From contig JAFCZD010000004.1 in the NCBI GenBank assembly GCA_019314525.1, positions 1 to 36,798 of the forward strand: 36,798 nt of DNA, written 5' to 3'. The position numbers and the translations under genes are program-made. Shown piece after piece: positions 3,505-14,534 of this stretch (the stretch's first letter is position 1; the number at the start of each line of letters is the position of its first letter). Under the pieces are notes generated by a model. It was given only the letters and a program-made list of their open reading frames with translations, ran no database searches and was not told the origin of the DNA. The DNA is from Deltaproteobacteria bacterium. Lineage in GTDB: Bacteria > Myxococcota_A > Polyangia > GCA-2747355.

Positions 3505-6500
3505 TTACTCCAGATAAGACGCGTAGATGTCAGCGTTGGCCCCGGTGGTATAGCTCCCGGCGCTTCCGCTGCGGTTTTCTACCCAAGCGACAACGATTTG
3601 GCTCCCCGCGATGCAGAGCTGTGGTTCACGTGCGTCCGACGCTCCCGCGGGCAGCGCCTCATCGACGCGTGCGTCAGGCACATTCCACGTGACACCATCA
3701 TCAAGGCTCTGGTTGACGTAGACATCACGCTGGGTGCCATCCCGAAGATCTTCCCAGGCGACGTAGACTCGGCTCCCTGTGGCAGAGACCGCGAGTCGCG
3801 GGCTGCTGGATGTGACCGCGCCTGCTACCCCGCCGGAGACCCGCTGGGCCACAGCCCCCCAGGTGGCGCCCCCGTCCGCCGAGCTGTTGGTGTAGATATC
3901 ATGGGCTCCACGGCTGGTGTCCGCCCAGGCGACGAAAGCTCTGCCCCCAGGCCGAAAGGCGACCACAGGATCCACCGAGTCGCCATCGACCACGTCGTTG
4001 TCAATGCGCACGCCATCGGATGGCCAGCTCGCGCCCCAATTTGTGGAGCGGCTCCCGCGTAGCGCTGAGAGGGGGGCTCGCAGGTCTTCCCAAACCACTA
4101 ACACCACACCACCACCGTCTGTCGCCACCTTGGGCTCCTTACCCGGCTGCGACGAGAGCGTCGCCTCGTCGGCGAAGGAGAGGGGCGTTGTGGCCAACGC
4201 TGCTCGGGCGACGTTGATCGACGCCCCCTGCTGCCAGGCGACGTAGATGTGACCGCTGTCTATGGCGATCTCTGGGAGGATGGCGTCTCCGGAAATGCGG
4301 TTGACTCGCCGGTCACCACTGAAGCTCGAGCCGCTGTCCTGAGAGAGGTTGCAGCGTACGTTGGGCTGAATTACCCCTGAGGTGTTGATCTCTTCCCAGC
4401 AGACCACGACGTGGTCTGCGTCGGTGGCGCTGGCGCCAGGGTGCACGGCAAGCCTCACAAAGAGCGAGTCGTTGCTCAGGGAGTCGAGGCGCAGGGGGCT
4501 CTGCCAGGTCGCCCCCCCGTCGCTGGAGCGGCGGAAGTAGACGTCACGTCGCCCCCCCGTGGTGTAGCGAGCATAGGCTAGGTAAACCCTCTTGCTCGTC
4601 GCTGTCGGGCCACCAAAAGAGAGCGCTGGCTCAACTTTCGACTCGGCCTCGGTGGCTACCGCCACGTCAGCGGAGAGCCAGCTCGCTGCGCTGTCGCTGG
4701 AGCGGTTGCCGTAGAGGTCGGCTTGTGGGTCATTGCGTCGGTCGAGCCAGAGGGTCAGCACATCGCTCTCATCACAGGCCAACGTCAGTTGCGCGGAGTT
4801 ATGGGAGCCGAGGGTCTCTGTAGGCTCGCTGAGCCGCTCCTCACGCCCTGATGCCGTGAAGACGCAGTCTGCGTCGTCATCAGCACCGTCGCAGTCGGTG
4901 TCCGTGCCATCACAATACTCCGTCTTGGGTCCCACAGCGTTGACACAGATTTGTGCGCCCGCCACACATTGAAGGGTGCCCTGGCTGCACTCACCTGTGG
5001 CGCTGCCACAAAAGCCGAAGGATGCTGGCAGGCCGTCGTCCACGAGGGTATTGCAGTCGTTATCCTTGTCATCACAGAGCTCGGCGACGGGCCTCACGTC
5101 ACCCGTGCAGGTGGGCGTCCCGAGCTGACAAACGAGGTTGCCCGTGCGGCACTCACCCACGTCGCTGCCGCAGATGCCGAGGCTGGGTGGCAGCTTGTCG
5201 TCCACGAAGGTGTTACAATCGTTGTCTTTGCCGTCACAGGTCTCTGGCTTTGGTCCTGTGGACTCCACGCAGACCTCAACGCCTCCTTGGCACTCGTGAT
5301 GCCCTTCTTGGCACTCGCCCATGGCGCTGCCACAGGGGCCCAGGTTCGAGGGCAACCCGTCGTCGACCTGGCGATTGCAGTCGTTGTCCTTGCCATCGCA
5401 AGCTTCGTTCACGGGGCCCACATCACCGGTGCAAGTGGGTGTGCCCAGCTGACAGACCAGCGAGCCGAGCTGACACTCACCCACGCTCGAGCCGCAAGCG
5501 CCGAGGCTTGGAGGCAGCCCATCGTCAACCGTACCGCTGCAGTCGTTGTCCTTTCCGTCACAGAACTCCGCCACAGGTCCCGTGGCGTTGACGCAGACCC
5601 GCACGCCTCCTTGGCACTCTAGATGCCCTTCTTGGCACTCGCCCACAGCGTTGCCACAGACGCCAAGGTTCGAGGCCAGCCCGTCATCAACGAGAGCGTT
5701 ACAGTCATTATCCTTGCCATCGCAGACCTCAACACTGGCCACGACGGCGTTCTTGCAGACAGGTTCGCCCCCTTCACAAATCAACGAGCCTTGCTGACAC
5801 TCACCCACGTCGTTGCCGCAGACGCCGAGGCTCGGGGGAAGCTTGTCGTCGATCTGACGGTTGCAGTCGTTGTCCTTGCCGTCACATAATTCGGGCTTGG
5901 GGCCTGTGGCATCCACACAGAAAGCGACCCCATTCTGACAAATCAGCTCGCCTGTCTGGCACTCGCCAATATTGCTGCCGCAGACCCCGAGGGGAGGCAA
6001 GGCGTCGTCTACTAGCCCATTACAGTCGTTATCCACGCCATCGCAGGTCTCGACGCCAGTGGCGAGGCACTCGCAGCCGTTGCCGTTGTCGCCGTCGGCA
6101 TTTTTGTGATCGCCCTTGCATGTGTCGAGCACACACTTGGCCTCAACGCAGAGGGTGGTGGCGTTGGCCAGCACGCACTTTACATTGCATCCACCGCAGT
6201 TGAAGGGGTCGGTTTGGAAGTCAACGAGCAAGCCCCCGGGGTCATCGACGACCCCGTTGCAGTCGTTATCCTTGCCATCACAGACCTCAACACCCGCGTT
6301 GCTCTTGACGCAAGGTTGTTCGCAGCCGTTGGCCTCCACGTCGTCAACATCAATGAAGCCTGGGAGGCAGCTCTGCACGAGGCACTGCCCCTTGACACAT
6401 TTTGGCGTGGCGTTGGCCAGGGCGCATGCTTGGTCGCATTTGCCACAGTTGGCGACATCGGTGCTGAGATCAAAGGTCTCGTCGATCTCGCCGTTGCAGT

Positions 6501-6921
6501 CGTTGTCGGCCTCATCACAGATCTCAGGCCCGCTGGGCGTGCATTCATACTCACATCCGTTGGCGCCCTCTCCATCGTGGTCATAGAAGCCAGGTGCGCA
6601 GCCGAGGTCTTTGCATTTGCCGAGTTCGCATAGGCTGAGGGCACCGTTCTTCAAGCAAGAGACGCCACACTCGCCGCAGTTCTCTGGATCTACCCGCAGG
6701 TTGAAGGGGTCGTCGATGAGCCCGTTGCAGTCGTTGTCGATCTCGTCGCAGATTTCGATGCCTTCGTTGGTGCGCACACAGGGCGGCCCGCCGTCGGGCA
6801 GCGGCCCAAACTCCGCCAGCTGCGCGTCACCAAGGACCACCAGCGCATAGGGATCTTGCTGGCAGCCCTGTGAGAGCATGGCCGTCAAAGAGAGCATCAG
6901 CAACGCAGATGATGTCTTCAT
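3505..6921 (-). CDS. MopE-type repeat lipoprotein with C-terminal Asp-box (sialidase-like) domain
   Basis: The 1138-residue product starts MKTSSALLMLSLTAMLSQGC, a signal peptide ending in a lipobox-like LSQGC, so it is a likely lipoprotein. Residues ~50-685 hold eleven copies of the MopE putative metal-binding motif (such as CDGKDNDCNRQIDD), separated by Cys-rich spacers of the type 'CGxxxGECQxGxLxCxxG'. Residues ~690-1138 contain at least five Asp-box-like motifs (SSDGGATW, SQDSGSSF, STNWGASW, SADGGATW, SLDDGVTW), typical of sialidase/BNR beta-propellers, although a full sialidase active site is not evident. The ORF-track start at 7170 is wrong: the ATG at 6921 overlaps the upstream gene's stop as ATGA and begins a proper signal peptide. 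The overlap implies coupled translation with the larger partner. Probable role is surface display or secretion; ligand unknown. Confidence 0.85.
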   Translation of the reverse strand: MKTSSALLMLSLTAMLSQGCQQDPYALVVLGDAQLAEFGPLPDGGPPCVRTNEGIEICDEIDNDCNGLIDDPFNLRVDPENCGECGVSCLKNGALSLCELGKCKDLGCAPGFYDHDGEGANGCEYECTPSGPEICDEADNDCNGEIDETFDLSTDVANCGKCDQACALANATPKCVKGQCLVQSCLPGFIDVDDVEANGCEQPCVKSNAGVEVCDGKDNDCNGVVDDPGGLLVDFQTDPFNCGGCNVKCVLANATTLCVEAKCVLDTCKGDHKNADGDNGNGCECLATGVETCDGVDNDCNGLVDDALPPLGVCGSNIGECQTGELICQNGVAFCVDATGPKPELCDGKDNDCNRQIDDKLPPSLGVCGNDVGECQQGSLICEGGEPVCKNAVVASVEVCDGKDNDCNALVDDGLASNLGVCGNAVGECQEGHLECQGGVRVCVNATGPVAEFCDGKDNDCSGTVDDGLPPSLGACGSSVGECQLGSLVCQLGTPTCTGDVGPVNEACDGKDNDCNRQVDDGLPSNLGPCGSAMGECQEGHHECQGGVEVCVESTGPKPETCDGKDNDCNTFVDDKLPPSLGICGSDVGECRTGNLVCQLGTPTCTGDVRPVAELCDDKDNDCNTLVDDGLPASFGFCGSATGECSQGTLQCVAGAQICVNAVGPKTEYCDGTDTDCDGADDDADCVFTASGREERLSEPTETLGSHNSAQLTLACDESDVLTLWLDRRNDPQADLYGNRSSDSAASWLSADVAVATEAESKVEPALSFGGPTATSKRVYLAYARYTTGGRRDVYFRRSSDGGATWQSPLRLDSLSNDSLFVRLAVHPGASATDADHVVVCWEEINTSGVIQPNVRCNLSQDSGSSFSGDRRVNRISGDAILPEIAIDSGHIYVAWQQGASINVARAALATTPLSFADEATLSSQPGKEPKVATDGGGVVLVVWEDLRAPLSALRGSRSTNWGASWPSDGVRIDNDVVDGDSVDPVVAFRPGGRAFVAWADTSRGAHDIYTNSSADGGATWGAVAQRVSGGVAGAVTSSSPRLAVSATGSRVYVAWEDLRDGTQRDVYVNQSLDDGVTWNVPDARVDEALPAGASDAREPQLCIAGSQIVVAWVENRSGSAGSYTTGANADIYASYLE
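4870..6770. repeat. Coding repeat array: eleven MopE motifs in the lipoprotein
   Basis: Plus-strand strings such as 'cagtcgttgtccttgcc' recur through this stretch and correspond on the minus strand to GGCAAGGACAACGACTG (G-K-D-N-D-C). Spacing between motifs is irregular, mostly about 100-200 nt. All copies are in frame. The array explains the many long shadow ORFs on the opposite strand. Confidence 0.85.
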
Positions 6922-9900
6922 CGTCGCACCTCCCCACCCCGACGCTGCCGTCGTCGGCGGCAGAGGAAGAACACCCCGAGGAGCACTAAGAGCGGCGTCA
7001 TGCTCTTGGCCCCCGCGCTCGTCGTCGCGACACCGCAGGATAGGCCGCCACCGCCAGCGGCGAGCAGGTCCACGCGCCTGCCGGCGAAGGTCAAGGGGCT
7101 GATACACTGGCCTTGTTGACAGCGCTCGCCCGAGGGGCAGGCCACAGAGACGCAGGGGTCGTCGATACAAGCGCCCTTTTCACAGAGGCGTCCCTCGCCG
7201 CAGGTCTTGCCATTGCAGGCGGTATCGCAGACCCCGTCGATGCAGCGGATGCCTTGGTTGCAGGTGATATCGGCGCAGGGGTTTGGCAGGCAGATGCCAT
7301 CCTCACAGCGCGCGCCGCCAGAGCCGCAGAGGGCTGGACCGCAGCTCGGCTTGCAGACGCCGTCCTTGCAATAGTCTCCTTCGTGGCACTGCACGCCTGC
7401 ACAAGGGGGCTTCTGACATGCGTTCTGCAGACAAACCTCTCCCACTGGACAGCCCATGCCGTAGCAGTTGTCTGCCACGCAGAAGCCGCCCATGCAGACC
7501 TCCTCTGCTTTGCAGTCGACATCAGCGCAGGGGTCGACGCACTCACCGTCGATGCAGCGCTCAGGGGCTTGGCAGGTCACTCCAGCGCATTTGTTGGGCA
7601 GGCAATAACCCTCAGAGCAGAGAAAACCCTGAGGACAGCCAAACTCGCCACCACCGCAGGCGACGCGACAGCCGCAGGCGACGCATTGGGTGTTGGGCGG
7701 GCAGAGCTCGTCACCCTCGTCGACCTCTCCATTGCAGTCGTTGTCCTTGCAGTCGCAAATTTCTGGAAAGCCTGGGATGGCGCCCACACAGGTGATTTTG
7801 CCACCAACGCACTTCGTCGCCCCCTCCAAGCACGTTTTGCCCGAGGAGTGGTCGCAGGGCTCACCCTCTCCAGGCAAGAGCGCGCCGGCCGCCGCGTCGT
7901 CCACAACGCCATTGCAATCATTGTCGACGCCATCACAAACCTCATCCTCCGGCTGTTGAGCGGTGCACCCGCTCCAGTCGTTGGTGTCGTCGTTGTCATC
8001 GACAAAGTCACAAACCTCGCTGCCGAAGCCGCAATCATTGGCACAGGAGCGTGTCAGGCCCTCGTCGATCTCGCCGTTGCAGTTGTTGTCGAGACCGTCG
8101 CAGATCTCCTCGCCGGGGATTGGTGCGTCACAGACCCACTTGCCGCCTGTGCACCTCTCCTTGCCCAAACAGCCTCCGATGGTGCACTGCTTTCCTGGTG
8201 GCAGGTTGTTGTCAATGCCACCGTCACAGTCGTCATCAACGCCATTGCAGACCTCCTTGGCCACGGGCGGCGCCGTGCAGCCGTGCCAGTCATTGCTCGG
8301 GTCTCCGTCGTCAGAGAACACACAAGCCTCCTGGCCTAGACCACACGCGCTGGAGCAAGCGCGCAGGACCCCGTCGTCGATCAGGCTGTTGCAGTCGTTG
8401 TCCTTGCCGTCGCAAGTCTCGGGCTGGGGTTTCGGTGCGTCACAGAGCCAGCCGCCGTCTCGGCAGACCCGCAGGCCGGTGCATCCACCATTTTGACAGG
8501 CTCCGTCTGTGCCCACCCCGTTGTCGATGGCGCCGTCACAGTCGTCATCTTTGCCATTGCAGATCTCAGTGACGGGCTGTGGCGCGGAGCAGTTAATCCA
8601 GCTCCCCGTGTTGTTTGGGTCGCAGGCCTCCATGCCCGTGCCGCAGATGCTGGTGCATGAACGTGTCACATCCTCATCGATCTGTCCGTTGCAGTTGTTG
8701 TCGACGCCGTCGCAGATCTCCGCTTGGGGTGCGGGCGCATCGCAAACCCATCTGCCGCCTTGGCATGTTCGCGTCCCTGTGCACCCGCTGGGCGCGGTGC
8801 AGGTGGAGCTTCCAAGGCCATCGTCGATGGCGTTGTTGCAATCATCGTCAAGGCCATTGCACAGCTCGGCCACGGGCTCTCTGGCGGTGCATCCTGCCCA
8901 GTCGTTGGCAGCGTTTCCATCAGCGGAGAAGTTACAGCTCTCCACGCCTGTGCCACAGGCGCTCGAACAGGGTCGGGTGACGTTGTCGTCCGCGGTGCCG
9001 TTGCAGTCGTTATCGATGCCATCGCAGACTTCCGCGGTGCGTGCGGGCGCATCGCAAACCCATCCACCGCTCTGGCAGAGGGTGGTGCCTACACATTGCT
9101 CTGAGCTGACACAGGGGCTGCCCACCAGACCCTCGTCGATCTCACCATTGCAATCATCATCAAGACCGTTGCAGGTCTCGAAGAGCGCCGGAACAGGAGC
9201 TGTGCAACCCATCCAATCGTTGGAGGGATCGTTGTCGTTGGTGAACGAACATTGCTCCTCCCCGCCTCCGCAGGCCGACGCGCAGGCGCGGAAGAGGTTT
9301 TCGTCCGCGGTGCCGTTGCAGTTGTCATCAACGCCATTACAGACCTCTGCTGCGGGCTGACAGGTCGGTACGAGCCCCTCGACCTTCACCATCGTGTCTT
9401 CATAGTCGTTGTCGCCCCCACGAAAGAGGTCCTCGAAGCCAAAGTAGAAGTGATCGGGGTTGGCTTTGCTGCGGTAGACGAGATAGTGCACGTAGTTGCC
9501 GTCGTTGTTCAGCTTGCTCTCGGTGTAGTAGATGCGGCCAAAGCCGTTGTCATCATCGTGGCCATCGCCCTCATCGACGTTGTCGTCGTCAAGGGCCCCT
9601 CCAGAGACGAGGGTGCCGCGGTCGTCGGGATCTGTGGCGCAGTTGCGCACGTAGACCCCATCGAAGCGGTCATTGCTGCGGTTGTAGCTGCCCTCAGGGG
9701 TCACCAGATAAAAGCCGATTTGCTTGCCCTTGTAGCGCCCCGCCGAAAACTCGGCCGCGAAGTCGATGCTGAAGGTGTACTCGCCGCTGATGACCCCACC
9801 CGACTCGGTGGCAGCTTCATAAGTGGAACGTTGCCCATAGGCGCATGAGGGCACAGCGGGATAGCGGATATGAGGCTCACCCACGTTGTACCAGCCAAAG

Positions 9901-10244
9901 ATGTTTTCAAAGCCGGCGCCCTCCTGCAGCAAGCGGAAGTTCACGGTGACGAAGGAGCCTGCGACCTCTGGCACGAGGAAGGTCTCAGGGCCCGTGTTCG
10001 CGTCGAGGATCGCGTCCACGGGGTTTGGCTGGCCCGTGGGCGGGATGCCCGAGACGATCCCTTCCCCATAGTTCAACCCCGTTTGGATACACCCGATGAG
10101 ATCCCCAGGACACGTGTTGATCTGCACGGGTACGATGGTGCCATCGATCTGATTCACTACCGCGCCGAGGCGGGGGGCCATGACGAGCAACACAGCCGCG
10201 GCGATGAGCGCGGCGGCACTTCTAGTTTTTCGAGAGCGTGACAT
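6918..10244 (-). CDS. DUF4114-like / MopE-repeat surface protein with MYXO-CTERM-like anchor
   Basis: The 1108-residue product has a signal peptide (MSRSRKTRSAAALIAAAVLLVM). Residues ~30-290 resemble DUF4114: 'IGFYLVTPEG' and, near the end, 'YFGFEDLFRGGDNDYEDTMV', matching that family's FEDL..GDxDYxD signature. Residues ~290-830 hold eleven MopE-type motifs (CDGxDNDCNG or CNGxDDDCNG). They are followed by about nine short Cys-rich units of the form CxxVxCxxGxxCxxGxC. The C-terminus is a tripartite signal: a GGGGLSCGVA segment, a hydrophobic helix 'TPLLVLLGVFFLC' and an Arg cluster 'RRRRQRR', as in MYXO-CTERM proteins processed by myxosortases. The ATG at 10244 is preferred because the ORF-track extension precedes the signal peptide. 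Its stop overlaps the start of the following lipoprotein gene. Confidence 0.85.
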   Translation of the reverse strand: MSRSRKTRSAAALIAAAVLLVMAPRLGAVVNQIDGTIVPVQINTCPGDLIGCIQTGLNYGEGIVSGIPPTGQPNPVDAILDANTGPETFLVPEVAGSFVTVNFRLLQEGAGFENIFGWYNVGEPHIRYPAVPSCAYGQRSTYEAATESGGVISGEYTFSIDFAAEFSAGRYKGKQIGFYLVTPEGSYNRSNDRFDGVYVRNCATDPDDRGTLVSGGALDDDNVDEGDGHDDDNGFGRIYYTESKLNNDGNYVHYLVYRSKANPDHFYFGFEDLFRGGDNDYEDTMVKVEGLVPTCQPAAEVCNGVDDNCNGTADENLFRACASACGGGEEQCSFTNDNDPSNDWMGCTAPVPALFETCNGLDDDCNGEIDEGLVGSPCVSSEQCVGTTLCQSGGWVCDAPARTAEVCDGIDNDCNGTADDNVTRPCSSACGTGVESCNFSADGNAANDWAGCTAREPVAELCNGLDDDCNNAIDDGLGSSTCTAPSGCTGTRTCQGGRWVCDAPAPQAEICDGVDNNCNGQIDEDVTRSCTSICGTGMEACDPNNTGSWINCSAPQPVTEICNGKDDDCDGAIDNGVGTDGACQNGGCTGLRVCRDGGWLCDAPKPQPETCDGKDNDCNSLIDDGVLRACSSACGLGQEACVFSDDGDPSNDWHGCTAPPVAKEVCNGVDDDCDGGIDNNLPPGKQCTIGGCLGKERCTGGKWVCDAPIPGEEICDGLDNNCNGEIDEGLTRSCANDCGFGSEVCDFVDDNDDTNDWSGCTAQQPEDEVCDGVDNDCNGVVDDAAAGALLPGEGEPCDHSSGKTCLEGATKCVGGKITCVGAIPGFPEICDCKDNDCNGEVDEGDELCPPNTQCVACGCRVACGGGEFGCPQGFLCSEGYCLPNKCAGVTCQAPERCIDGECVDPCADVDCKAEEVCMGGFCVADNCYGMGCPVGEVCLQNACQKPPCAGVQCHEGDYCKDGVCKPSCGPALCGSGGARCEDGICLPNPCADITCNQGIRCIDGVCDTACNGKTCGEGRLCEKGACIDDPCVSVACPSGERCQQGQCISPLTFAGRRVDLLAAGGGGLSCGVATTSAGAKSMTPLLVLLGVFFLCRRRRQRRGGEVRR
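7690..9360. repeat. Coding repeat array: eleven MopE motifs in the MYXO-CTERM protein
   Basis: Repeated plus-strand strings such as 'ttgcagtcgttgtc' and 'ttgcaatcatcatc' mark in-frame copies encoding DNDCNG, DDDCNG or DNNCNG. The repeats are more diverged than those in the downstream lipoprotein gene. Spacing is mostly 120-180 nt. Confidence 0.8.
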
Positions 10245-10431
10245 GCGCAGGAAGATAGCTCGTGGTTGGGGCCTTGGGTAGGGCTCGGAAATCTGAGGGT
10301 GTGATCGGACGCTCGGCCAGGCGCAACCGGCGCCGAGGGAACGTTCACGCTTGTAGATCCCGCCCTCGGCGACTCCCGCCGACGCCCATTCACTTGCACC
10401 GCACACAGTTCATCGGCTAGGTTGCGCCGCT
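10245..10431. promoter_or_regulatory. Divergent intergenic region between the MopE-type pair and the arg operon
   Basis: This 187-nt region separates two diverging transcription units and must carry promoters in both directions. I cannot identify a convincing -35/-10 pair by eye. On the minus strand it contains TCCGATCACACCC (10297-10309), which also occurs at 3409-3421, a similar distance (about 52 nt) upstream of the antiporter start. Confidence 0.45.
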
Positions 10432-11484
10432 ATGAACAAACACGCCCTTCGGGTTCGCCCCGACAAGGTTGGTAGCGTTTGCCTCCCATTGAATCTTCGT
10501 CCCTACCTCACCGTGAGCCCTGAGCTCGTCGTTGAAGAGGGCGTCGCCATCGTGGGGCGGGTGCTAACCATCTCTCATACTTACGGACACCTTGAGCTCA
10601 CCTCGGGGCGCCCAGCGCTGCTGGTTCCCGGTGATTTGGTGGTGGGGGTGCTTGGCGCACGCGCTGCTCTGCGTGGCTTCTGCGGCCGGGTGCCGCAACG
10701 CCTCACACGGGGAGACACCGTCTTTTTGCTCAACAAGGGCGGGGTCATCGGTGAATCCTCCGGCGCCACGGTAGGACTCGGTGAGCCTATTCGCCTTGAG
10801 GTCATCGGCACACCCATCCGTGATGGCAAACCCCTGCGCCTCTTGGATTATGCCATCACGCCAGTGAAGCAGCTGCCACCTAAGATGCCGCCGGTGTTGG
10901 TGGTGGCTGCCACCTGCATGCACGCGGGTAAGACCAGCGCTGCGGGCGTGGTGATCCATCATCTTACGAGCCGCGGTCTGTGTGTACACGCGGGCAAGGC
11001 GACGGGCGTGGCGGCTCAGGGCGACCTGCTCAGCTTCATCGACAATGGCGCTGCCAAGATAGCGAGCTTTGTCGACGTAGGCTTGCCCTCGACCTGTGAT
11101 CACAAGGACATGCCCGACGTGACACGCACCCTCTTGGCGCACCTCGCCGAGGAGGATCCCGATGTGATCGTGCTTGAGCTCGGCGATGGTTTGATGGGAG
11201 CTTACGGCGTGGATGATATCGTGGAGGACGCGGAGCTGCTCGAGGCCTTCACGGGTGCGCTCGTAGCCGCCAATGATGTCATCGGTGGCCACGCGGCTGC
11301 CAACATTCTTCAGCAGCGCGGTGTGCCTGTGGTGGCGATCACCGGGCCCGCTACGGACAACGAGGCAGGCCGTGGAAGGCTCGCGCTGCTGGGTTTTCCT
11401 GCTGCGAATATCTTCCAGCAGGCGCGGAAGCTTTGTGAGCTGGTGGATATCTCCTTCGGCTTTGAGGTCGAGGAGAGTCCATGA
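10432..11484 (+). CDS. Uncharacterised P-loop NTPase (DUF1611/dethiobiotin-synthetase-like), first gene of the arg operon
   Basis: The 350-residue soluble protein has two parts. Residues ~1-145 are beta-rich with no recognised fold. Residues ~150-350 begin with a strand and P-loop-like 'VVAATCMHAGKTSAAG', containing the GKTS of Walker A but Thr in place of its first Gly, as in some dethiobiotin-synthetase/CobQ-type loops. A Walker B-like strand 'PDVIVLELGDGLMGAYG' follows at ~240-260, then 'VPVVAITGPATDNEAGRG'. This order resembles the C-terminal domain of DUF1611 proteins, but the N-terminal half does not look like theirs. The stop overlaps the argC ATG (ATGA), indicating coupled translation and a link to arginine metabolism. 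The function is unknown; amide-bond ligase-like or regulatory ATPase activity is speculation. Confidence 0.7.
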   Translation: MNKHALRVRPDKVGSVCLPLNLRPYLTVSPELVVEEGVAIVGRVLTISHTYGHLELTSGRPALLVPGDLVVGVLGARAALRGFCGRVPQRLTRGDTVFLLNKGGVIGESSGATVGLGEPIRLEVIGTPIRDGKPLRLLDYAITPVKQLPPKMPPVLVVAATCMHAGKTSAAGVVIHHLTSRGLCVHAGKATGVAAQGDLLSFIDNGAAKIASFVDVGLPSTCDHKDMPDVTRTLLAHLAEEDPDVIVLELGDGLMGAYGVDDIVEDAELLEAFTGALVAANDVIGGHAAANILQQRGVPVVAITGPATDNEAGRGRLALLGFPAANIFQQARKLCELVDISFGFEVEESP

Positions 11485-12509
11485 CACGAGTCCCCGTGGG
11501 TGTGGTGGGTGCGAGCGGCTTCCTTGGTGGCGAGTTGATCCGGTTGCTGGTAGCGCACCCTGAAATTGAACTCGCCATGCTCTGCGGCGCGCGTTCCGCG
11601 GGCCAGAAGATTGGCGCTTTGCGCCCTTCCCTCGCTGCGCTGCCCCATGTTGTCGAGGCCGTGAACGCAGAGGCCCTCGCTGCGCGCTGTGAGGTGGTCT
11701 TCTGCGCCATGCCTCATGGCGAGAGCGCGACCTTGACCGCTGAGCTCCTTGCTCTCCACGAGACCGTGCGTGTGATCGATCTTGGCTCTGATTTTCGGCT
11801 GCGCGATCCTGCCGGCTACCCCCGCTATTACGGTCGACAACACCCCCACCCGGAGCTGCTGGAGCAGGCCTTCTACGCGCTCCCAGAGCTTACAGGTGGC
11901 GCACCACGAGAGGCGCGCATCATCGCCAATCCGGGCTGCTTTGCTACGGCGCTGGCGTTGGGCATTACGCCCCTGGCGGCGGCGATGAAAACTTCCGCCC
12001 GCATCGCTATCAGTGGTGTCACGGGCAGCAGCGGGAGCGGCGCTGCGCCTGGGCCAGGTGTGCATCACGCCTTGCGGCTCACCAACCTCAGAGCGTACAA
12101 GCCCCTCGCGCACCAGCACCTCGGGGAGTTGCGTCAAACCTTGCGCGAGGTGGCTCAAAACGAGGTGGCGGTGGACTTCGTGCCCCACAGCGGCCCCATG
12201 GCGCGGGGGATTCATTTGACGATGCATATCCGTCGCAACGAGCTCGAAGGAGACGCCCTCTCCCTCCTCGAAGCGGCCTACGCCAAGAGCGCCCTGGTGC
12301 AGGTGCAACAAGGCCCTGTAGCCATGGGCGCGGTCCTTGGCTCTTGCCGCGTCGAGATCGGCGTCGCCCAGGACGCTGAGGCCATCGTGGTCTTTGTGGC
12401 CATCGACAACCTCCTCAAGGGAGGCTCGGGCCAAGCGCTACAAAACCTCAACCTCTGGCTCGGCCTCGAAGAGACGCTGGGTCTGCCCCTCTGCGGAGTA
12501 TGGCCATGA
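11481..12509 (+). CDS. argC: N-acetyl-gamma-glutamyl-phosphate reductase (or LysW-type homologue)
   Basis: NADPH-dependent reduction of N-acetyl-glutamyl-5-phosphate to the semialdehyde, third step of arginine synthesis, in the cytoplasm. The 342-residue protein has the Rossmann start 'VGVVGASGFLGGELIRLL', the 'IDLGSDFRLRD' segment, and the catalytic Cys in 'ANPGCFATAL' (about residue 152). 'AYKPLAHQHLGEL' and 'FVPHSGPMARGI' follow, with the closing 'AIDNLLKGGSGQALQNLNL'. The 'GVTGSSGSGAAP' loop and 'YKPLAHQH' also resemble the LysY branch, so a LysW-linked substrate cannot be excluded. Its ATG overlaps the stop of the P-loop gene by 4 nt, and its own stop overlaps the argD start. Confidence 0.92.
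   Translation: MTRVPVGVVGASGFLGGELIRLLVAHPEIELAMLCGARSAGQKIGALRPSLAALPHVVEAVNAEALAARCEVVFCAMPHGESATLTAELLALHETVRVIDLGSDFRLRDPAGYPRYYGRQHPHPELLEQAFYALPELTGGAPREARIIANPGCFATALALGITPLAAAMKTSARIAISGVTGSSGSGAAPGPGVHHALRLTNLRAYKPLAHQHLGELRQTLREVAQNEVAVDFVPHSGPMARGIHLTMHIRRNELEGDALSLLEAAYAKSALVQVQQGPVAMGAVLGSCRVEIGVAQDAEAIVVFVAIDNLLKGGSGQALQNLNLWLGLEETLGLPLCGVWP
12495..12498 (+). promoter_or_regulatory. GGAG ribosome-binding site within the argC end, selecting the argD start
   Basis: Two in-frame ATG codons lie at 12500 and 12506. The GGAG at 12495-12498 is only 1 nt from the first but 7 nt from the second. The second also forms an ATGA overlap with the argC stop. Both facts favour 12506. Confidence 0.65.
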
Positions 12510-13645
12510 GTGAAGCTCTGCTTGATGTTTATCCACGTCTGCCTATTCACCTCGAGCGCGCCCAAGGGCAGTGTCTCTACGCTTCGGATGGTCGCGAGTT
12601 GCTCGACCTCTATGGAGGCCACGCCGTCACGCCCCTTGGGCATGGCCACCCCGCGCTCACACGCGCGCTTTGCGAAGGGCATCGTGAGCTCGACTTCTTC
12701 TCCAACTCGCTGCACATGGCCGTGCAACGACGAGCAGCAGAGGGCCTGCTCGAGGGCAGCGCCCACTTACGCCACGCGCACTTCGTCAACAGCGGCACCG
12801 AGGCCAATGAGGCGGCGATTCACCTCGCGCGCCGCCTCTCCGGCCGCAAGAAGATCCTCTCCTTCGATTGCTCCTTTCATGGTCGCACCCAGGCGAGCTT
12901 GGCGGCCACGGGACTCCCAGGGTACAGGCGCCGTCTGAGCGTGCCCGAGGACGAGGCGTTCAATGGCTTCATCTCGTTTGGCGCCCAGGATGACCTCGCC
13001 GCCATCGACGAGAGCGTAGCCGCCGTACTCTGCGAGTCCGTGCCTAGCCTCGCTGGCGTGTTGATGCCGCCAGAGGGTTACTACCCAGCCCTCGAGGCGC
13101 GCTGTCGTGAGGCGGGGGCGCTGCTGATCTTTGATGAGGTGCAAGGGGGCTGCGGTCGGTTGGGGCATTTTTTCGCCCATGAGCGCTTCTCTGTGCAACC
13201 CGATATGGTGACCTTGGCCAAGGGCGTCGCCGGTGGGTACCCTGCCGGAGCCTTGTTGGTGACCGCTGGCATCGGCGCTGCGGTAGAACATGGCGAGTTG
13301 GGCACAACCTTCGGCGGAGGGCCCATGGCCTGCCGCATGATCGAGACCACGGCGCGCCTGATCCGGGAGGAGGGCCTGCTGCAGCGAGTGGGGCAGATCT
13401 TTGCGCGCATCGCCGCCGGGGTGAAGCCCATGGAGGGCGTTAAGCTGCGTGGTGCTGGCTGTTTAATCGGCCTCACGTCGCGGTTACCCGCCAAAATGCT
13501 GCAAAAACGCCTCCTCGAGGCGAACATCCTTGTGGGCACGAGCGCCGATCCACGGGTTTTGCGCCTGCTTCCAGCGTATACTCTGACGGACGAGGAGATC
13601 GATCGTTTCCTCGACGCTCTAGGGAGCGCGTTGGCTGAGGCTTAG
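12506..13645 (+). CDS. argD: Acetylornithine aminotransferase (class III PLP aminotransferase)
   Basis: PLP-dependent transamination of N-acetylglutamate semialdehyde to N-acetylornithine, or the equivalent LysW-bound step. The 379-residue product has the class III features: 'LDLYGGHAVTPLGHGHP', 'NSGTEANEAAIHLAR' for cofactor phosphate binding, 'FHGRT', 'LIFDEVQGGCGRLG' with the Asp that contacts the pyridine nitrogen, and the Schiff-base Lys in 'VTLAKGVAGGYP' (about residue 238). The start at 12506 is chosen over 12500 by ribosome-binding-site spacing and the 4-nt overlap with argC. argB follows 22 nt after the stop, so the four genes form one operon. Confidence 0.93.
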   Translation: MSEALLDVYPRLPIHLERAQGQCLYASDGRELLDLYGGHAVTPLGHGHPALTRALCEGHRELDFFSNSLHMAVQRRAAEGLLEGSAHLRHAHFVNSGTEANEAAIHLARRLSGRKKILSFDCSFHGRTQASLAATGLPGYRRRLSVPEDEAFNGFISFGAQDDLAAIDESVAAVLCESVPSLAGVLMPPEGYYPALEARCREAGALLIFDEVQGGCGRLGHFFAHERFSVQPDMVTLAKGVAGGYPAGALLVTAGIGAAVEHGELGTTFGGGPMACRMIETTARLIREEGLLQRVGQIFARIAAGVKPMEGVKLRGAGCLIGLTSRLPAKMLQKRLLEANILVGTSADPRVLRLLPAYTLTDEEIDRFLDALGSALAEA

Positions 13646-13667
13646 CGGCCTCTTGGAGAGGGAAACT

Positions 13668-14534
13668 ATGGTTGGTGATTTAGGGCCGAGCCTTAGCGAG
13701 GCTGCCCCCTATATTCAGTCGTTTCGCGATCAATTCGTGGTGATCAAGCTCGGCGGTGAGCTCTTCGACCAAGGCTCCACCTTGGAGCGCATTGTGCCAC
13801 AGGTCGCCACACTCTACCGTTGTGGTCTGCGCCCTGTGTTGGTGCACGGTGGCGGCAAGCAGATCGACGAACGCTGCGCCAAAGAGGCCGTAGCCATCGA
13901 GAAGCGCCACGGGCGGCGCATCACGAGCCCCGCCGTTCTCGAGATTGTGCTTGAGGTGGTGGGTGGTGACATCAATGGGCGCTTCTGTCAGCTGCTAGAA
14001 GAAGCAGGGGTCCCCACCCACGGTTTTGCCGCCGGTGTCGCTGAGGCTATCCATTGTCGCCGTCGCCCTCCTGTGGAGATCGAGGGTGAGCAAGTGGACT
14101 TTGGCGAGGTGGGGGATGTGCTCGAGGTGCATACCGAGACCCTGGTCAGAGACAGCGACGGGGGCAAGGTGCCTGTATTCCCCAGCATCGGTATGGGTGA
14201 AAATGGGCCGCTCAACGTCAACGCGGACAGCATCGCCTCGAAGATCGCCGTGGCCTTGCGCGCCCAGAAGCTGGTGATGCTCTCGCGGGTCGCAGGAGTG
14301 ATGGAGGACCTCAACGCCGACGGACCTATTTCACAGCTGACCACCGTGGAGGCCCGTGAGCTGATCGACGAAGGCATCGTCGAGGGTGGCATGCGCGCCA
14401 AGCTGGAAGAGGCGCTCTCTGCCCTCACCGGCGCCGTGGCCGAAGTCCACGTCATCTCGGGGGTTCAGCCCCAGACTCTCCTACGAGAGATCTTCACGGA
14501 TGAGGGTTGTGGGACCTGGATTCGGCGGGCTTAG
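13668..14534 (+). CDS. argB: Acetylglutamate kinase (amino acid kinase family)
   Basis: ATP-dependent phosphorylation of N-acetylglutamate (or a LysW-glutamate/aminoadipate conjugate), the usual feedback-controlled step of arginine synthesis. The 288-residue protein carries 'VVIKLGGELFD' at the N-terminus, the Gly-rich loop 'LVHGGGKQIDERC' (canonical NAGKs have HGGGPQI), and 'LNVNADSIASKIAVALRA' followed by 'LVMLSRVAGVMED'. The C-terminal 'IVEGGMRAKLEEAL' and 'VHVISGVQP' are typical. The ORF-track start at 13653 is a TTG; the ATG at 13668 has GGAGAGGG just upstream and is preferred. It is the last gene of the operon. No argJ or argA acetyltransferase is seen in the window. Confidence 0.9.
   Translation: MVGDLGPSLSEAAPYIQSFRDQFVVIKLGGELFDQGSTLERIVPQVATLYRCGLRPVLVHGGGKQIDERCAKEAVAIEKRHGRRITSPAVLEIVLEVVGGDINGRFCQLLEEAGVPTHGFAAGVAEAIHCRRRPPVEIEGEQVDFGEVGDVLEVHTETLVRDSDGGKVPVFPSIGMGENGPLNVNADSIASKIAVALRAQKLVMLSRVAGVMEDLNADGPISQLTTVEARELIDEGIVEGGMRAKLEEALSALTGAVAEVHVISGVQPQTLLREIFTDEGCGTWIRRA

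Follow-up and report, generated by a model that had tools for sequence, protein, structure and literature searches.

The first gene of the arginine operon in the window, a stretch of 36,798 nucleotides from a deltaproteobacterium, probably encodes a non-homologous N-acyl-L-glutamate synthase, a P-loop protein of SIMIBI fold that would perform the first committed step of arginine synthesis. The arginine role of this gene is well supported, while the reaction is one that we infer at the sequence level from the completeness of the operons that carry the gene and from the replacement of ArgJ and ArgA in the respective genomes. In the proposed pathway, the protein would N-acylate L-glutamate, a task otherwise performed by ArgJ, ArgA or GNAT-type synthases, and the N-acylglutamate would be processed by ArgB, ArgC and ArgD, an N-acylornithine carbamoyltransferase, and finally ArgE, ArgG and ArgH. 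In the window's own lineage, deacylation followed by an ornithine carbamoyltransferase would probably take the place of the N-acylornithine carbamoyltransferase.

The P-loop gene (10432-11484, + strand) starts with ATG and encodes 350 aa. It is followed on the same strand by argC (N-acyl-gamma-glutamyl-phosphate reductase, 11481-12509; NCBIfam TIGR01850, 328 bits), argD (N-acylornithine aminotransferase, class III, 12500-13645; assigned by family models) and argB (N-acylglutamate kinase, 13653-14534; TIGR00761, 167 bits), whose product of 293 aa has no fused acetyltransferase domain. The TGA stop of the P-loop gene (11482-11484) overlaps the ATG of argC (11481) as ATGA, and the sequence GAGGAG within its last codons (11470-11475, + strand) corresponds to the argC ribosome-binding sequence. 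The original prediction had described this overlap and the position of the gene at the head of argC-argD-argB, and both were recovered at exactly the same coordinates. The G+C content by codon position (0.71/0.45/0.71) matched that of argC and argD. Homologues with 35–66% identity were present across two phyla, Myxococcota and Acidobacteriota, so the gene is not a chance open reading frame. Divergently from the operon, on the minus strand, the window encodes two large cysteine-rich MopE-like proteins with EXCDGXDNDCNGXXDD repeats (3505-7170 and 6918-10406), the second of which has a MYXO-CTERM-like tail at its end.

We did not detect any Pfam or NCBIfam match for the window protein up to E 10, and its best hits among PDB sequences (E 0.3-0.9) were chance only. 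The AlphaFold2 model, built with seven sequences (pLDDT 90.4, pTM 0.89), contained only strands in residues 1-130, with the exception of residues 15-17, then a short helix (137-140) and then an alpha/beta P-loop domain. The top Foldseek matches of the P-loop domain in the PDB were the SIMIBI-class proteins FtsY, BioD, HypB and SRP54, with CTP synthase also among those returned. For the isolated N-domain model (pLDDT 73), no PDB fold match was found by Foldseek (all E above 0.5). Four features were located on the + strand: the all-beta N-terminal domain (residues 1-152; 10432-10887) with conserved Y51, E55, R77, G82 and N101-K-G-G; the P-loop ATCMHAGKTS (residues 160-169; 10909-10938), in which G166, K167 and T168 are invariant; the invariant K189 (10996-10998), which aligns with the second active-site lysine of dethiobiotin synthetases; and the Walker-B-like strand VIVLELGDG (residues 245-253; 11164-11190) with the invariant E249. 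A variant P-loop, a Walker-B-like strand and a beta-rich N-terminal domain had all been predicted from the sequence, and all three were borne out. R77, G166-K167-T168, K189, D198, F213 and E249 were invariant in 68 out of 68 homologues, distant ones included, while N101 and D309 were invariant in the arginine-linked clade only, with Y51 and E55 nearly so. When the family profile was compared to dethiobiotin synthetases, K167, T168 and K189 fell on the P-loop and second-lysine positions. With its GKT loop, second lysine, acidic residues and SIMIBI fold, the protein belongs to the SIMIBI P-loop class, and D198 and E249 would be its Mg ligands.

We searched 284 Myxococcota and 149 Acidobacteriota genomes, plus GTDB contigs. 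Relatives were found in 60 of the Myxococcota genomes, 54 of which contained the close kind (counting the partial match in G157), and the close kind was also present in 35 Acidobacteriota genomes, including two (G285 and G288) that were also obtained from the GTDB scan. The GTDB contigs yielded six further loci, one from Myxococcales and five from Acidobacteria. Distant paralogues were carried by Priestia and Rhodobacterales plasmids and by a few of the Myxococcota and Acidobacteriota. In the maximum-likelihood tree, all 90 close-kind sequences formed one clade (96/97 support), in which Myxococcota and Acidobacteriota sequences were interleaved, and the 12 unlinked paralogues fell outside this arginine-linked clade. 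Two loci labelled 'non' inside the clade (L034 and L061) lie at contig ends and touch argC or argF'. The distant paralogue on the Priestia megaterium plasmid NZ_CP085446.1 (L037, 82732-95592) is part of an apparent phosphonate biosynthesis cluster, with a PEP mutase family protein, a split TPP-dependent enzyme, two ATP-grasp proteins, an ornithine carbamoyltransferase, an M20 peptidase and an LLM flavin oxidoreductase. The paralogues of Rhodobacterales plasmids (L038, L039) and two of Myxococcota (L094, L095) are close to an ABC transporter gene (cluster c19), which the first two overlap directly, possibly as part of a natural-product or transport system.

A locus was scored as linked when arg genes lay no more than 9 kb away on its own strand, on the basis of profiles of argR, G, C, D, F', B, E and H. 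We read 90 loci of the close kind (51 Myxococcota, 33 Acidobacteriota, and 6 GTDB), and all of them adjoined arg genes (51/51, 33/33 and 6/6, respectively); the outgroup of 12 distant paralogues was the only group without arg linkage. The arginine role, which the original prediction had drawn from the coupling in one genome, is supported by this linkage in 90 out of 90 loci. The gene directly downstream was argC in 82 of the 90 loci (43 Myxococcota, 33 Acidobacteriota and 6 GTDB), and the remaining Myxococcota loci were at contig edges or adjoined argG or argF'. The typical order was argR-argG-[P-loop gene]-argC-argD-argF'-argB-argE-argH; a second order was argD-argF'-argB-argE-argH-argG-[P-loop gene]-argC, and a third argG-argH-[P-loop gene]-argC-argF'-argB. 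That the gene is a fossil of an ancestral operon, hitch-hiking without any arginine role, is extremely improbable: all linked members do belong to a single clade, as such a fossil would have it, but at least three rearranged gene orders keep the contact with argC or argG in most cases, the sequences of the two phyla interleave in the tree, and the exclusion of ArgJ described below would be left unexplained.

The full operons comprised argR, G, C, D, F', B, E and H, that is, all the steps except for N-acylglutamate formation. Of the loci with the P-loop gene, 24 out of 51 in Myxococcota and 15 out of 33 in Acidobacteriota also contained argE. Among the operon neighbours examined, we did not see any GNAT gene that recurred. 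In the loci L044-L048 of family f31, the arg operon lacked argD with all the other steps present, and the N-acylornithine aminotransferase must be located elsewhere. Another locus (L140, G291:C56, 10431-14081) had an extra set of argD-, argB- and argC-like genes adjoining the arg operon, which possibly belongs to a lysine or other amino-group-carrier pathway.

The presence of the P-loop gene was accompanied by the absence of the known first-step enzymes. ArgJ (PF01960) was encoded in 142 out of 284 Myxococcota genomes, but only in 1 out of 54 with the P-loop gene as opposed to 141 out of 230 without it (Fisher p 1.8e-17), and in Acidobacteriota the numbers were 0 out of 35 and 47 out of 114, respectively (p 2e-7); these p-values overstate the case, since they ignore phylogeny and genomes within a phylum are non-independent. 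The same exclusion was found within families f7, f21 and f25, and the second phylum agrees. The lone Myxococcota genome with both genes (G253) has 6% contamination, and another record with both (G284, relative L031) is 11.2 Mb long and may be mixed. Classical full ArgA was present in 17 out of 284 Myxococcota genomes and in 0 out of the 54 with the P-loop gene, and short S-NAGS above the cut-off in 0 out of 51 genomes with the P-loop gene. In operons with the P-loop gene, all four ArgB proteins that we scanned had a single domain and a length of about 290 aa. PF01960 did not match the window protein or anything else in the window's genome. TIGR01890 (ArgA) did not match the window protein and gave one match in this genome (E 2.4e-36), far below the cut-off, as is expected from a single-domain argB. 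The GNAT Pfam domains had no match in the window protein or in the homologues scanned.

The simplest reading of these operons, complete except for step 1, together with the replacement of ArgJ and ArgA, is that the P-loop protein supplies the N-acylglutamate. The original prediction had proposed a role not covered by the textbook enzymes; given this replacement, the enzyme would indeed be a non-textbook one, but what it catalyses is probably step 1 as given in textbooks. We consider it unlikely that a diverged, unlinked GNAT (S-NAGS, C-NAGS or ArgA2-like) makes the N-acylglutamate, with the P-loop protein being an accessory of the operon, such as an allosteric sensor, a chaperone or a partner of ArgB or ArgC. 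GNATs diverge fast, and an unlinked one may escape homology searches. Some known synthases, such as Cg3035 of C. glutamicum, evaded detection for years (PMC3827942). Residual weak GNAT matches were found in 2 out of 51 genomes, and the genome G127 manages without the P-loop gene: its operon (L105, G127:C173; argR-argG-argC-argF'-argB-argH, then carA/carB-like genes) was accompanied by neither the P-loop gene nor ArgJ, so another first-step route must exist there. However, one would not expect an accessory gene and ArgJ to exclude each other in two phyla, the P-loop gene is the sole member without an assigned step in otherwise complete operons where no GNAT recurs, and its invariant catalytic-type residues point to an enzyme rather than an accessory protein.

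That the P-loop protein is an enzyme of another step, involved in carbamoyl supply, deacylation, or N-acylation of ornithine or citrulline instead of glutamate, is very unlikely. BioD-like enzymes do handle CO2/carbamate chemistry and some of the operons are without argE, but argE co-occurs with the P-loop gene in the Myxococcota and Acidobacteriota loci counted above, and ArgJ, the enzyme that alternates with it, acts on the N-acyl group of glutamate and ornithine and not in carbamoyl supply.

We compared the putative synthase with its distant homologues. It shares a P-loop domain of the same class with DUF1611 (PF07755/PF17396), which includes the N-acetyltransferase DgcN (NCBIfam NF041892): 32 out of 44 homologues matched PF07755 weakly (best E 1.3e-4; 14.0-19.5 bits for those scanned singly, the cut-off being 25), with no match for the window protein at E 10, and the profile-profile comparison of the two families gave 92% (E 5e-7). 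There was no full-length match, though, and an all-beta N-domain stands in place of the Rossmann-like DUF1611_N, with PF17396 matching neither the window protein nor the homologues. In addition, the P-loop protein keeps GKT and K189, whereas the three DUF1611 proteins that we read have GKRTT and no lysine. NF041892 did not match the window protein, and the DUF1611 proteins of Myxococcota matched it below the equivalog cut-off. An identity with DUF1611/DgcN was thus rejected due to the sub-cut-off score, the different N-domain and the different active-site letters. DgcN reportedly N-acetylates D-glutamate from acetyl-CoA, and it offers a precedent for N-acylation of glutamate by this fold class. 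For the DUF1611 family, a solved structure is available (7xrj). A literature search on DUF1611 and on P-loop N-acylglutamate synthases found nothing relevant.

The P-loop protein also resembles BioD and the CobQ/CobB/CTP-synthase group in its SIMIBI P-loop fold and in the active-site lysines and threonine. The sequence similarity is, however, restricted to approximately 50 residues around the P-loop, there is an extra N-domain, and the context is an arginine and not a biotin operon; TIGR00347 (BioD) matched 20 out of 44 homologues weakly (best E 7e-6), never above the cut-off, and did not match the window protein. In enzymes of the BioD and CobQ/CobB/CTP-synthase group, a carboxylate, carbamate or carbonyl oxygen is first phosphorylated, and an amine or ammonia then reacts with it. 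By analogy, ATP might activate a carboxylic acid as an acyl phosphate to be attacked by the amine of glutamate, the alternative being direct transfer from acyl-CoA. We slightly prefer the ATP-dependent ligation because, as judged from the alignments, the ATP/Mg residues of BioD are kept, unlike in the three DUF1611 proteins read. Like ArgJ and ArgA/S-NAGS/C-NAGS, the P-loop protein would initiate arginine synthesis by N-acylating L-glutamate, but it did not match their family models. The same role has been proposed for ArgA2 (BT3761/Cabys_1732) of Bacteroidetes, as an N-succinylglutamate synthase in genomes whose carbamoyltransferase is of the succinylornithine type (PMC7311316, PMC9026213). 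The annotation places ArgA2 in the GNAT family (PMC9026213), and on the basis of this description the P-loop protein, with its SIMIBI fold, was set apart from it.

We finally examined the carbamoyltransferases as indicators of the acyl group. A relative of N-acetylornithine carbamoyltransferase was encoded in 52 out of 54 genomes with the P-loop gene. Three positions are reported to separate the acetyl- from the succinyl-ornithine enzymes (PMC4581275), and a specificity rule is also available from the Bacteroides-type succinyl route (PMC7311316). We took A/S/P/V/Q, P, and V/I/E at the positions of Glu92, Asn185 and Lys302 of X. campestris, respectively, as succinyl-type. The carbamoyltransferases beside the P-loop gene had mostly A/V/P/S/Q at the first position (7 T and 1 I), P at the second (rarely G or A) and V/I/E at the third (except for 7 with K), and none in these loci had the E-N-K triplet. 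These residues make the Bacteroides-type succinyl route likely in these operons, and most relatives probably work with a succinyl group. Myxococcota contain two kinds of knotted N-acylornithine carbamoyltransferase, the succinyl-type by the P-loop gene and the acetyl-type by a 442-aa ArgB; in G008 (L113), the E-N-K enzyme lies beside such an argB, whose length would accommodate an acetyltransferase domain. In the window's genome (G000, 84% complete), no succinyl-type carbamoyltransferase was found, and an ornithine carbamoyltransferase was present in two reading frames (contig C447, 8534-9378), due to an assembly error or a frameshift. An ArgE-like gene with a carbamoyltransferase in the same genome (G000:C779, L101) was rejected as a second arg locus, as it adjoins a ygfK-like gene; we take these to be ygfK-, ygeY- and ygeW-like genes of the selenium/purine-catabolism type.

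More tentatively, the P-loop protein may represent a new synthase class that uses ATP and free succinate or acetate via an acyl phosphate and serves an arginine pathway with succinyl intermediates in Myxococcota and Acidobacteriota. The first-step enzymes that we found described are GNATs, ArgJ-type transacetylases or, as predicted, an M20-like protein (PMC3827942, PMC9026213), and genome-based metabolic models repeatedly show a gap at the first arginine step. If our reading is true, a P-loop enzyme would close this gap across much of two widespread phyla, and succinylated arginine synthesis would extend beyond Bacteroidetes. It would also suggest an amide-forming chemistry for an uncharacterised superfamily, other members of which are found in apparent natural-product clusters.
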